Assembly (NCBI GenBank): GCA_016181345.1
Contig: JACOZM010000132.1
Location: forward strand, 1 to 10,114
Length of the DNA: 10,114 nt
Source of the DNA: Candidatus Woesearchaeota archaeon
Lineage (GTDB): Archaea; Nanobdellota; Nanobdellia; Woesearchaeales; GW2011-AR9
Direction of reading: 5' to 3'
In this document: positions 1,080 to 8,586 of the stretch, piece by piece
How positions within the stretch are numbered: position 1 is the stretch's first letter
Layout of the letters: every line of letters begins with the position of its first letter
Program-made: the position numbers and the translations under genes
Notes under the pieces: generated by a model
Database searches by the model: none
The model's input: the letters and a program-made list of their open reading frames with translations, nothing else
Told to the model about the DNA's origin: nothing

Positions 1080-2108
1080 CTAAACCGGCAGGGTAAACAG
1101 CATACTAGTTGAATAGATCTTCGTTAAGATATCAACATTGTTTGTTATCAGCGCTTCTAATAATGCCCCGGCAATAAAGATCAGAACAGCAAAGATAAAG
1201 AGATAAAAGTTATACATAAAAACCTCCCGATATTTTTTCTGCTGAAATGTTTTTGAAAGGAGGATTAGGATGATAACAATAACGAGCATCTGCAAAGGAA
1301 TAGCTAACCATGAAACAATTCCAAAAAATCTAAGCAAAAAATGCAGGACTAAGCTTATTCCCACTCCGATGATTGAAAAGAGAACGAATTTGTGTACGTA
1401 AGAGCTTTTCTTCACCACATCATTGGAGATGATACTCGCTGAGATTGCCGCTAAGATATACGCTAAGGCTTCTAAGATTAAAAATGGCGCAGTTAATCCT
1501 AAGATGATAAAAAATAATTTCAAAGAACTTCCTCCGATATATTCTGCTGAAGTAATTGCTCTATAACTTAGGATAACACCCCATGAGGAAGCATTCCATG
1601 TCACAAAAAAAATCCCTCCATCTTTAACAAACAAAGAAACGATAAAAATCGTCAATAAAACCCACCAGTTATTTCCTAAGATTGTCCAGAAATCTTGAAA
1701 CATGAACGTCGCTCCTCCTTTACTGAAATCTAATAAGAGCTGGCCATGAAAACTAGATAAGATATTTATTCCCAAAAGGTGGAAGATGAAAACATACGAT
1801 GCATACGTAAAAAAGATAGAGACAAAGAGCATAAAATACGTAACAACTGCCTCCTTGTTATCCCTGAAAAGATGCCAGAGAGAGAATGATCTCTCCCGTT
1901 CTTCTTGCGATTCTTCTTTTTTCAACAATCTCTCTAATAATGGAAAAATGAGCAGAGAAGTTAATACTACGGAAATTAATCCCGAATTTTTACCAAACAA
2001 TAAAACGGAAATAAGGATAGAAACCGAGGAGTAGATAATACCTATCAACAACGTATAACGTAATTTATGTTCAGTCCAATTTTTTGGAAATAATTTTTCT
2101 AAAACCAT
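1080..2108 (-). CDS. spoIIM: SpoIIM/DUF95-family integral membrane protein
   Basis: The product is 342 aa beginning MVLEKLF. I chose the ATG at 2108 over an in-frame GTG at 2117 because the GGTGA containing that GTG makes a correctly spaced Shine-Dalgarno for the ATG, and SpoIIM-like proteins of small archaea commonly begin MVLE. There is an N-terminal hairpin of two membrane segments (about 17-38 and 42-58), a charged loop rich in E/K/R (60-86), then about five to six more segments. Family marks are the N-N-W-x-V-x-L-x-x-F stretch (146-155), the P-F-L-I-L-E-A-L-A-Y segment (208-217) and the last segment ending A-L-L-E-A-L-I-T (315-322). SpoIIM in Bacillus works with SpoIID/SpoIIP in septal wall remodelling; the archaeal relatives have no proven function, so the name records homology only. 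It lies 53 nt downstream of a signal peptidase gene in the same direction and may be co-transcribed. Confidence 0.8.
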   Translation of the reverse strand: MVLEKLFPKNWTEHKLRYTLLIGIIYSSVSILISVLLFGKNSGLISVVLTSLLIFPLLERLLKKEESQEERERSFSLWHLFRDNKEAVVTYFMLFVSIFFTYASYVFIFHLLGINILSSFHGQLLLDFSKGGATFMFQDFWTILGNNWWVLLTIFIVSLFVKDGGIFFVTWNASSWGVILSYRAITSAEYIGGSSLKLFFIILGLTAPFLILEALAYILAAISASIISNDVVKKSSYVHKFVLFSIIGVGISLVLHFLLRFFGIVSWLAIPLQMLVIVIILILLSKTFQQKKYREVFMYNFYLFIFAVLIFIAGALLEALITNNVDILTKIYSTSMLFTLPV

Positions 2109-2161
2109 TCTTTTCACCTTTTTTTTAATATGTATATTTTAACATCACCGATCATAAAAAC

Positions 2162-6099: not shown

Positions 6100-6741
6100 A
6101 TGAGATACAAAACTCGTCAATTATTGGTAGGGATACTCCTTGCAGGAAAATTACTGGCTGCCTGCGCAGCTGAACAGCGAGTCCACCCTAAATTAGCATC
6201 ACGACCAGCTATCGTTACAACAATTGCTTCAACAGTTCTGCCCTTGCTTCAAAAAATTGAGGATAGGCTCCAGAAGATTTTAGATGATGAGAAAAAGATA
6301 GATGATATTCTTGAGGCTTTTACAATAGATGGTGACCACGAACTGAGGTTGGGTCAGATGGGTTTTGATACGAAAAGCATAGGCATTCTTTTAGGACAAT
6401 ATTTCGCGAATATAGAGCAGATCAGTCAAGAGATTGCGCTATTGCGGCAACATCAGAAATATGCCGCGCAGGCAGAGATATTACTCAGAAACGTTGATGC
6501 AAAAAAGCGCATAGAAAATTGCAGTACGGAATTATATCAGCTTAGTCTGCACGAAAAATACTATAGGGACCATCGAAGCTTGGAATGGCTTTTTCGTTAC
6601 CTTAATGAAGTTATGATAACGGCGTTGAAAGAAAGTAGTAATATCAAGTCCCTATTCCAGTTAAAAGAACTTTTCCGGCGAAAGTCACAGCAATTAGTTA
6701 TGGAAACAGGCTTCAGTAGTTTTTCTACTTTTTTTAGATGA
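6100..6741 (+). CDS. Unrecognised putative lipoprotein, helical, 213 aa
   Basis: I do not recognise this protein. It opens with a signal-like segment: basic MRYKTR, a hydrophobic core to residue 21, and a lipobox-like L-A-A-C at 19-22, so C22 may carry the lipid anchor. The rest appears almost wholly helical. Residues about 38-75 (L-P-L-L-Q-K-I-E-D-R-L-Q-K-I-L-D-D-E-K-K-I) and 100-135 are heptad-like and could form coiled coils. It contains C141 as the only other cysteine and ends with an aromatic tail S-S-F-S-T-F-F-R. It probably sits on the outer membrane face. Its own leaderless promoter separates it from aEF1-beta, and it converges with the LAGLIDADG gene at 6784 with a 42-nt gap. A non-lipidated secreted protein is the alternative. 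Confidence 0.7.
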   Translation: MRYKTRQLLVGILLAGKLLAACAAEQRVHPKLASRPAIVTTIASTVLPLLQKIEDRLQKILDDEKKIDDILEAFTIDGDHELRLGQMGFDTKSIGILLGQYFANIEQISQEIALLRQHQKYAAQAEILLRNVDAKKRIENCSTELYQLSLHEKYYRDHRSLEWLFRYLNEVMITALKESSNIKSLFQLKELFRRKSQQLVMETGFSSFSTFFR

Positions 6742-6783
6742 GATAAAAAATGAGGGAATATCTTCATTATCCTGGATTTGGCA

Positions 6784-7794
6784 TTAGGATGATTTGTTTT
6801 CTTTTACCCAATTCGTTGGAGAGACACCATACTGCCTGTTAAATATTCGTCGGAAGGTATCTACATGATAGCCATACGAAGCAGCTACTTCCTGCACTCG
6901 AGCACCAGACAGAAGCATTCTTTCGATCGGACCAAAATCTTCTGGAGGAGCTGCTGCTGTTGCCGGTTCTTTCCCATCTTCCAATATCCTTTTTGTTTCT
7001 GGCAAAAACAAGCCTGTGTCTTCTAGATAAGCAGCATCTTGATAGATAAAATCCCGCACACGATTGGCATTGGCGCCACGATAGGAAAATCTTTGTCCTG
7101 ATGGGCCTTGCCCCCTTACTCCCGCCTGCTCTTTCAGATAGCTATGCATGGCTGCAAGAAAAGGGAGCCCAAACCTAAAAAAACCAATCCGGACATCGGT
7201 ATCTCGCGTTTGTTGAACTCCTGCATTACCATCGACGATACCCCGGATAAAATGGCTCATCATGGAATCAGGGAGATCAAGAAATTGCCTTTCCCGTGCT
7301 GGCCTAGAAAAACCTAATGTATGAAGAGTTTGGTAGAGGTGAATCACACTATAAAAATGGAGCTCATACGCTCCGGTATTCCCAGTAACTACTGGCTTAT
7401 GCCGGGCCTCCAACTCCGTCCTTACGATATCCACTAAGGTCTCATTTTTTGAACAAAAGCTAAAATCACCCTTCTGAGAAATGACCGGCCGCCCATACAG
7501 CAATCCAGTTACATAAGCTACATGCTCGGTAGGATTTTCCAGGAAGTTGTCGAAGTAATGTTCATTAACATCAAGTGCCCTAGAAGACGACAACTTGTGG
7601 CGCTTTAGTAAATCGGGGTTTCTCTCCATCGCCCAAGCACGTGGATATTGTCCGAGACGACGAAAAAATTCCGAAGACAGCTGCTTTAATGTCAGCCCCT
7701 CTTCCTGAGCAATATCTTTGATCCTATCTCCATTTAGTAAACGCTCTTCAACGCGTTGTTGGATATTCTTATCCCATGGAATTGGCTTGCCCAT
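6784..7794 (-). CDS. HTH-LAGLIDADG-HTH DNA-binding protein with degraded catalytic motifs (WhiA-like design)
   Basis: The product is 336 aa. Residues 14-57 are an AraC-type helix-turn-helix (D-R-I-K-D-I-A-Q-E-E-G-L, F-F-R-R-L-G-Q-Y-P-R-A-W), and residues 289-331 a second copy (A-R-V-Q-E-V-A-A-S-Y-G-Y, I-F-N-R-Q-Y-G-V-S-P-T-N-W). The two copies align with each other. Between them, about 90-262, is a two-repeat LAGLIDADG fold: first motif V-T-G-L-L-Y-G-R-P (95-103), second I-R-G-I-V-D-G-N-A (183-191), with the expected strand-helix pattern after each and the typical end F-I-Y-Q-D-A-A-Y-L. The catalytic acid of each motif is replaced (R102, N190), so cleavage is unlikely and a regulatory DNA-binding role is inferred. 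Bacterial WhiA is the known parallel: an inactive LAGLIDADG domain fused to one HTH. The gene is GC-richer than its surroundings, suggesting transfer. The ATG lacks a Shine-Dalgarno; a stop codon lies in frame just upstream. The target is unknown. Confidence 0.8.
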   Translation of the reverse strand: MGKPIPWDKNIQQRVEERLLNGDRIKDIAQEEGLTLKQLSSEFFRRLGQYPRAWAMERNPDLLKRHKLSSSRALDVNEHYFDNFLENPTEHVAYVTGLLYGRPVISQKGDFSFCSKNETLVDIVRTELEARHKPVVTGNTGAYELHFYSVIHLYQTLHTLGFSRPARERQFLDLPDSMMSHFIRGIVDGNAGVQQTRDTDVRIGFFRFGLPFLAAMHSYLKEQAGVRGQGPSGQRFSYRGANANRVRDFIYQDAAYLEDTGLFLPETKRILEDGKEPATAAAPPEDFGPIERMLLSGARVQEVAASYGYHVDTFRRIFNRQYGVSPTNWVKENKSS

Positions 7795-7943
7795 CTTATT
7801 TTTTTGTTATCAACACGTAGTAGATTTTCATTGCTCGACATTTTTCCTAATACTTCTTCTATTTTTCTTGCTTTGGCATTTAATAAAAGTTCTGAATCAG
7901 AAGCCCTTTGTTAGAGAAGGTGCTTATTTTGTTGACAGTTACT

Positions 7944-7953
7944 TTTTTATAAT
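7944..7953 (+). promoter_or_regulatory. TATA box for the PEBP lipoprotein gene (leaderless)
   Basis: TTTTTATAAT is centred about 26 nt before the ATG at 7975 with no Shine-Dalgarno. It predicts transcription from the start codon of the long, lipoprotein form. Confidence 0.6.
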
Positions 7954-7974
7954 CAAACTTCTTTAGTTAGTTTT

Positions 7975-8586
7975 ATGCTTAGAAAAAGGGAGATAGGAGT
8001 AGTAATAGTTTGCACATTCTTCTTACTAAGCTGCAGTCCAGAAGATATCTCCAAAGAAGAAATAATCTTTGAAGAACAAACCAGCGAAGAATTAAATACA
8101 GACACAATAGAAAAAAATATAGATGAGGTGAACAACATGCAGCTAACCAGTCCGGCATTTCAAAACAACACACTAATTCCTAGCACCTATACGTGTGATG
8201 GGAAAAACATTAATCCGCCATTAAAAATATATGGAATTCCAAAAGAAGCAAAAAGTTTAGTTTTGATCATGGATGATCCCGATGCCGTTAAACCAGCAGG
8301 AAAAGTCTGGGATCATTGGATTGTATTTAATATTCCGCCATCAACAACTATTATTCCTGAAGGAAAAGAGCCACAAGGAGTTCATGGGAAAGGAACAGGA
8401 GGAAATCTAAACTACCACGGCCCTTGCCCTCCTGATGCCGAACATCGGTATTACTTCAAGTTATATGCCCTAGATACTCAACTAAGCCTTCCCGAAGGAT
8501 CTACTAAACTTGAAGTAGAAAAAGCCATGCAAGGACATATCATAGAGAAAACAGAACTTATCGGAAGATATAACAGGAAGAGATAA
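7975..8586 (+). CDS. PEBP/YbhB-family protein with lipoprotein signal
   Basis: The long product is 203 aa. Residues 1-20 are a signal peptide with lipobox L-L-S-C (C20), followed by an acidic linker (21-54). The core from M55 is a phosphatidylethanolamine-binding protein (Raf kinase inhibitor-like, YbhB/YbcL type): L-T-S-P-A-F, Y-T-C-D-G-K-N-I-N-P-P-L, the D-D-P-D-A motif (100-104), D-H-W-I-V-F-N-I-P, and Y-H-G-P-C-P-P with H-R-Y-Y-F-K-L-Y-A-L-D. These form the anion-binding pocket; the bacterial and archaeal members have no settled ligand. Stand-alone YbhB proteins are about 150-160 aa and begin where M55 begins. A near-perfect Shine-Dalgarno, GAGGTGA, precedes M55, so a 149-aa cytosolic form is likely also made. 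It is followed 64 nt later by a small membrane protein gene. Confidence 0.9.
   Translation: MLRKREIGVVIVCTFFLLSCSPEDISKEEIIFEEQTSEELNTDTIEKNIDEVNNMQLTSPAFQNNTLIPSTYTCDGKNINPPLKIYGIPKEAKSLVLIMDDPDAVKPAGKVWDHWIVFNIPPSTTIIPEGKEPQGVHGKGTGGNLNYHGPCPPDAEHRYYFKLYALDTQLSLPEGSTKLEVEKAMQGHIIEKTELIGRYNRKR
8125..8139 (+). promoter_or_regulatory. Internal Shine-Dalgarno and start within the PEBP gene
   Basis: GAGGTGA (8125-8131), then five bases, then an in-frame ATG at 8137. It would start a 149-aa protein equal to the bare PEBP domain, without signal peptide or linker. The same bases encode E-V-N-N-M, so coding chance cannot be excluded. Confidence 0.55.

Follow-up and report, generated by a model that had tools for sequence, protein, structure and literature searches.

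A LAGLIDADG protein lacking catalytic acids, with AraC-type helix-turn-helix units at its ends: a candidate archaeal regulator domesticated from a homing endonuclease

The 10,114-nucleotide contig JACOZM010000132.1, from a genome of Candidatus Woesearchaeota (assembly GCA_016181345.1), was analysed in full and is referred to below as the window. Its minus strand carries an intact frame of 336 codons (7794 to 6784, ATG to stop), encoding a protein in which a two-repeat LAGLIDADG core lies between two AraC-type helix-turn-helix (HTH) units. The core has the fold of a LAGLIDADG homing endonuclease, HTH units are present at the ends, and the catalytic acids are missing from both motifs, here and across the clade of relatives that was found. 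The likely reading is that a homing endonuclease was domesticated here into a protein that binds DNA without cutting it and probably regulates transcription.

The history that would account for these features begins with a free-standing HTH-LAGLIDADG_3 homing endonuclease that lost both metal-binding acids, the known cases of such loss being in archaea of the Woesearchaeota group and their kin. AraC-type HTH units would have been acquired, at both ends in the window protein. The monomeric two-repeat core would probably still sit on DNA through its beta-sheet saddle, or serve as a scaffold, while the HTH units would read the flanking sequence. From this arrangement we infer a protein that would bind DNA at particular targets without cleaving it and act on transcription as a sequence-specific repressor or activator, by analogy with WhiA in Gram-positive bacteria.

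Descent of the core and loss of its catalytic acids

An AlphaFold2 model of the window protein (predicted local distance difference test score, pLDDT, 89) placed a two-repeat LAGLIDADG fold at residues ~86–279, with both alpha-beta-beta-alpha repeats and the two central motif helices, as a preliminary description of the sequence had anticipated. The best matches of the model among solved structures were PI-PfuI, I-Tsp061I and I-DmoI, and WhiA was matched too; these matches covered the core, and the HTH ends were hardly probed by them. Since acid-bearing relatives were present in the alignment behind the model, fold and homology are not independent evidence.

A Pfam scan of the protein itself at E <= 10 returned no LAGLIDADG model (PF14528 included) and no WhiA model. 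HTH_18 was matched at the C-terminal end, and a profile of the window protein and five relatives did reach the LAGLIDADG_3 family, recovering 43 proteins of which 31 carry PF14528. Putative free-standing LAGLIDADG_3 homing endonucleases with HTH occur in this set; an HTH is annotated in 7 of the 31 (precomputed Pfam) and is of another type than the AraC-type units of the window clade. Profile-profile comparison (hhalign) of the window clade gave 99.0% (2.9e-18) against ten acid-bearing LAGLIDADG_3 proteins, 97.8% (9e-13) against an archaeal set linked to metK (described below), and 99.9% (3e-33) against four cousins that lack the acids. These comparisons show that the window clade shares descent with acid-bearing HTH-LAGLIDADG_3 proteins. 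The two groups (for the latter, with examples among P0013–P0043 and L018–L025) have in common the NEHYFD linker, an AYxxG first motif, an SHFIRG second motif and the two-repeat core; they differ in that the acid-bearing proteins have Asp as the eighth residue of each motif (Asp/Asn in P0034 and P0037), whereas the window clade has Arg and Asn.

Position 8 of the LAGLIDADG motif is taken here to be the catalytic acid. In the solved archaeal homing endonuclease 2DCH the matching profile columns read LIAADG and FIDGDG, with Asp at both acid positions. Both motifs of the window protein were confirmed where the preliminary description had placed them, and the acid positions are Arg102 and Asn190; the acidic residue of an active LAGLIDADG homing endonuclease is absent from both. 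With both metal-binding positions replaced in this way, the protein should not cut DNA. The loss, first noted for this protein, was found by homologue alignment to be family-wide. All ten members of the close group, made up of the window protein and the nine relatives nearest to it (P0002–P0010; 43–91% identical), have the Arg/Asn pair, and none of the nine retains intact acids. Ten more distant rows, mostly from the same archaeal order, also lack both acids, with varied replacements (P0011, P0012, L002, L010, L011, L012, L014, L015, L046 and L047). The remaining rows are nearly all Asp/Asp; the free-standing exceptions are P0034 and P0037 (Asp/Asn), L056 (Asp/Glu), L038 (Asp/His) and L062 (His/Glu), and three long frames have Glu/Asp. 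Eight further proteins and 18 frames of later loci (one of which, L090, ends before its second motif) show the same split, the later acidless finds P0044, L101, L102 and L103 being the same genes as L015, L010, L015 and L014, respectively. P0044 alone among the acidless members is named by a source, as a 'hypothetical protein'. Loss of the acids across the family strengthens the plausible interpretation of the protein as a putative regulator.

That the protein is still an enzyme, nicking or cleaving DNA through other residues or as an active partner in a heterodimer, is very unlikely. Its fold and core helices are intact in the model and one acid does remain, Asp188 in the second repeat (position 6 of the motif IRGIVDGNA); at position 8, however, where 2DCH and almost all relatives that bear the acids have Asp, the acid has been lost from both repeats in every member of the clade that was found.

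A tree was estimated from 86 core sequences out of 101 domain hits, with the two acid columns removed. Frames longer than 350 residues (P0012 excepted), one copy of the window protein and cores shorter than 140 residues were left out; L035 and L071 have one motif only. The label 'acid-bearing' took in P0034, P0037 and L056, while L038 and L062, labelled as half, did not count as acidless. L047 was placed in the acidless group by hand, its motif IRGFIEDKC having Lys at the acid position and the aligner being one column off. The 20 acidless rows formed one side of a branch with support of 98/75, which is under the program's mark for a firm branch; support for the window protein's own subclade was 100/99. 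After seven rows were dropped (the long-branched L065, L038, L057, L056, L062 and L015, with L012 added; L015 and L012 are acidless), the branch uniting the 18 remaining acidless rows, of 79, had support of 100/99. The tree is unrooted, and we infer loss rather than gain of the acids because LAGLIDADG enzymes bear them.

HTH units and comparison with known regulators

The preliminary description held that two mutually similar AraC-type HTH domains flank the core symmetrically. The units are present and alike, but each amounts to half a domain, and both ends are occupied in only two of the ten close-group proteins. At the C-terminus Pfam matched HTH_18 with 37.4 bits (cut-off 33.6) and HTH_AraC with 30.7 bits (cut-off 26.6), and a profile of the acidless group matched the C-terminal half of MarA (E 1.7e-4). 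The N-terminal unit was weaker in Pfam (HTH_AraC, E 8e-4 to 9e-4 in P0005/P0006; HTH_18, 0.16 in P0004). Coverage of the 80 positions of the HTH_18 model was 38–79 at the C-terminal end and 38–77 at the N-terminal end of P0004–P0006, so that each end holds one HTH unit, the second half of the model, and not the full two-HTH AraC domain.

Within the window protein the two units aligned over 43 residues without gaps and with a score of 61; the shuffled mean was 20 and none of 2000 shuffles of the C-terminal unit scored as high. In profile-profile comparison N-terminal units (six sequences) matched C-terminal units (ten sequences) at 98.2% (4e-14), while the window-clade N-terminal units matched the N-terminal HTH of six acid-bearing proteins at 28%. 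Because the N-terminal unit is nearer to the C-terminal unit than to the N-terminal HTH of acid-bearing proteins, this pattern favours the capture of one AraC-type unit followed by its duplication.

Architectures varied among relatives. In the close group P0003 has the C-terminal unit only; P0004, P0005, P0006, P0007 (a partial unit) and P0009 have the N-terminal unit and end after the core, and P0008 and P0010 have it and end at or within the core, although some of these ends may be cuts at contig ends. Six cousins (L002, L010, L011, L046, L047 and P0012) have C-terminal AraC-type units (best Pfam E 7e-5 to 6e-10), in tandem in P0012 and, by sequence, in P0011. The tail of L015 is helical but matches no HTH model in Pfam, and L012 and L014 end after the core. 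A single-sequence fold of P0012 (pLDDT 37.9) was not used. The unit resembles the C-terminal HTH of AraC/XylS regulators (MarA, GadX, Rns); those regulators have two adjoining HTHs, whereas in the window protein the adjoining pair is absent and a single unit stands at each end with the LAGLIDADG core between. In the more distant cousins P0011 (by sequence) and P0012, two units do adjoin.

The established example of a homing endonuclease that became a transcription regulator is WhiA, and the architecture described here, a degenerate LAGLIDADG domain joined to HTH, is like it in kind. WhiA (DUF199, Gram-positive bacteria) has one C-terminal HTH, while the window clade has AraC-type units at either or both ends; WhiA acts on transcription, a role that is putative in the window protein. 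A passage in one source (PMC3781837) states that the LAGLIDADG part of WhiA has lost key residues, that the HTH binds DNA specifically, and that WhiA both activates and represses genes. The same kind of co-option by a host is described in a passage of another source (PMC7282813) for the yeast HO endonuclease, a LAGLIDADG homing endonuclease that still cuts DNA, in contrast to the window protein, which is read as non-cutting.

A case independent of WhiA had been suggested, and profile comparison agrees: hhalign gave 0.3% between the window clade and four WhiA proteins, against 99% with LAGLIDADG_3, and so shows LAGLIDADG_3 proteins, not WhiA, as the sequence kin of the clade. WhiA itself gave 7.0% against the LAGLIDADG_3 set, almost no sequence relation, and the comparison therefore cannot date a split from WhiA. 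Since the profiles tie the clade to acid-bearing HTH-LAGLIDADG_3 proteins and not to WhiA, this looks like a loss of catalysis separate from that of WhiA. A WhiA orthologue was ruled out by the lack of a WhiA Pfam match (E <= 10), the hhalign result and the absence of any PF14527 match at E <= 0.001 in the window's genome, which is 68% complete. In a set of 14 control genomes, PF14527, the model of the WhiA LAGLIDADG domain, did score over its threshold in that of the archaeon Methanocaldococcus jannaschii. Our leaning, a modest one, is towards a second such lineage, without sequence kinship to WhiA, where LAGLIDADG homing endonucleases of Woesearchaeota-type archaea would have become non-cutting DNA-binding regulators: the acids would have been lost once and an AraC half-domain captured and duplicated, and in the lineage of the window protein the HTHs flanking the saddle would form a clamp-like arrangement.

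Distribution and alternative explanations

The archaeal context proposed for the gene was upheld, in that the order of the window's genome holds a named Ca. Woesearchaeota genome. Acidless members were found in 7 of 287 genomes of the order (G000, G026, G228, G300, G237, G289 and G070; A1 at 1e-3), in at least 4 of 378 of the class (G000, G026, G506 and G532; A4 at 1e-4, with ten weaker matches outside the count), in 2 of 49 of the family and in 5 of 371 of the phylum (A4 at the stricter 1e-12); these samples overlap, and all of them include the genome of the window. A scan of named genomes with A5 gave 14 loci, three of them acidless and all three in archaeal records (L029, L030 and L031); in ten others the visible motifs retain Asp, and L038 is Asp/His (L042 is L025). 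No relative was found in a genome contigs collection scanned with A1. Neither of two pattern scans of viral contigs yielded an acidless relative; a distant acid-bearing protein was the one hit of the first, and the second had none. Around nine acidless loci no neighbour was common to more than two, and there were four single pairwise matches.

Some acid-bearing relatives had settings of their own. In one HTH-LAGLIDADG clade all seven genes, from six families, lie directly upstream of metK (S-adenosylmethionine synthetase) and in the same direction (L003/L016, L017, L018, L019, L020, L021 and L023, in archaeal genomes of the window's order; in L017 only the metK start is visible, at the contig end). 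Wider relatives of this clade occur in 12 of 287 genomes, with the metK linkage checked for part of them. The members of the clade may be homing endonucleases that occupy a fixed site, or else regulators linked to metK. A uracil-DNA glycosylase gene lies downstream of L006 (by Pfam) and of L007 (by eye), which encode acid-bearing LAGLIDADG proteins that have an HTH at the C-terminus, and the acid-bearing HTH-LAGLIDADG genes L022 and L025 are preceded by an M29-type aminopeptidase gene (by Pfam and by eye, respectively).

Several observations weigh against a domesticated regulator. Neither the gene neighbourhood nor an operator repeat points to a regulon; a repeat search over 6640–8100 found two weak inverted pairs, both of which fall within the gene, the intergenic stretch upstream having none. 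Overall the core carries a slight excess of acidic charge (net -4), which disfavours strong DNA binding by it. HTH units at both ends are restricted to the window protein and P0002, which are 91% identical. The Arg/Asn subclade occurred in no scanned genome but that of the window, so that a single metagenome-assembled genome supports its assignment to archaea. The gene is rare and patchily distributed, as a dying mobile element would be too, and relatives drawn from protein databases have open frames by construction.

The last points bear on a decaying homing endonuclease, a gene that has lost catalysis and is drifting with no host function yet. Its patchy distribution, the lack of widely common neighbours and the many different residues at the acid positions outside the window's clade would suit this explanation, which is nevertheless unlikely: a single branch with long divergence inside it unites the acidless rows, no stop interrupts the frames (205–343 codons) of the eight acidless cousins whose sequence comes from genome DNA, Arg102 and Asn190 are constant throughout the close group despite its divergence, and HTH units have been gained or kept in most members. 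That the protein guards against homing, as an acidless cousin covering the sites targeted by active HTH-LAGLIDADG endonucleases and so blocking their invasion, is highly improbable. Acid-bearing relatives do exist in the same archaeal order, one group of them at the fixed site upstream of metK, but none was found in the window's incomplete genome (none at 1e-20) and no common target site was identified. Some LAGLIDADG proteins are maturases, and an RNA-binding splicing factor was accordingly considered; it is given very little credence, there being no group I intron match in the window around this free-standing gene, and the AraC-type end units pointing to DNA.

Genomic setting and implications

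Coordinates of the gene and its parts are collected in Table 1.

Table 1. Features of the acidless LAGLIDADG gene, in window coordinates
Feature	Position	Strand	Basis
Whole gene, 336 residues, HTH - acidless two-repeat LAGLIDADG - HTH	6784..7794	(-)	Open reading frame, relatives, structure model
N-terminal AraC-type HTH unit, residues 9-58	7621..7770	(-)	Model helices 9-20, 25-31, 36-47, 51-58; likeness to C-terminal unit; weak Pfam matches on relatives
Two-repeat LAGLIDADG core, residues 75-280	6955..7572	(-)	
First LAGLIDADG motif VTGLLYGRP, residues 95-103; Arg102 (7489-7491) at catalytic acid position	7486..7512	(-)	
Second LAGLIDADG motif IRGIVDGNA, residues 183-191; Asn190 (7225-7227) at catalytic acid position	7222..7248	(-)	
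C-terminal AraC-type HTH unit, residues 285-336	6787..6942	(-)	Pfam HTH_18, HTH_AraC; MarA match

The window is the entire host contig, in a genome of 902,592 bases. The matching frame on the plus strand of 6784–7794 is broken by stops. Neighbours identified by Pfam encode an RNA 3'-phosphate cyclase, a protein with an EF-1 guanine nucleotide exchange domain, a PEBP-family protein and a DsbA/thioredoxin protein; of nine window frames, four had no Pfam match and one had a sub-threshold match only. No tRNA was found in the window, and an RNA-family search of it returned nothing at cut-off. Separate frames lie on either side of the gene, which, with the missing group I intron, bears out its description as free-standing. 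Neither the intron or intein nor the repeated insertion site of an active homing endonuclease was seen at this locus. A group I intron or intein endonuclease was ruled out on the grounds of the free-standing frame and the lack of an intron match, and a recent pseudogene by the intact frame and full-length relatives. A predicted membrane protein encoded elsewhere in the window (1083–2138, minus strand) is 27% identical to L097 12535–13398 (E 4.6e-13), which is ~4.3 kb away from the acidless gene in G300.

No report of an acidless LAGLIDADG-HTH regulator in archaea was found among the matches listed in open-licence literature, mostly at the level of title and abstract. To our knowledge, few regulator families have been described in DPANN archaea, and the present reading, if true, would add one. 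An archaeal lineage that also has acid-bearing relatives would make the path from nuclease to regulator testable, both in the order of acid loss and HTH capture and in whether the LAGLIDADG saddle still reads DNA.
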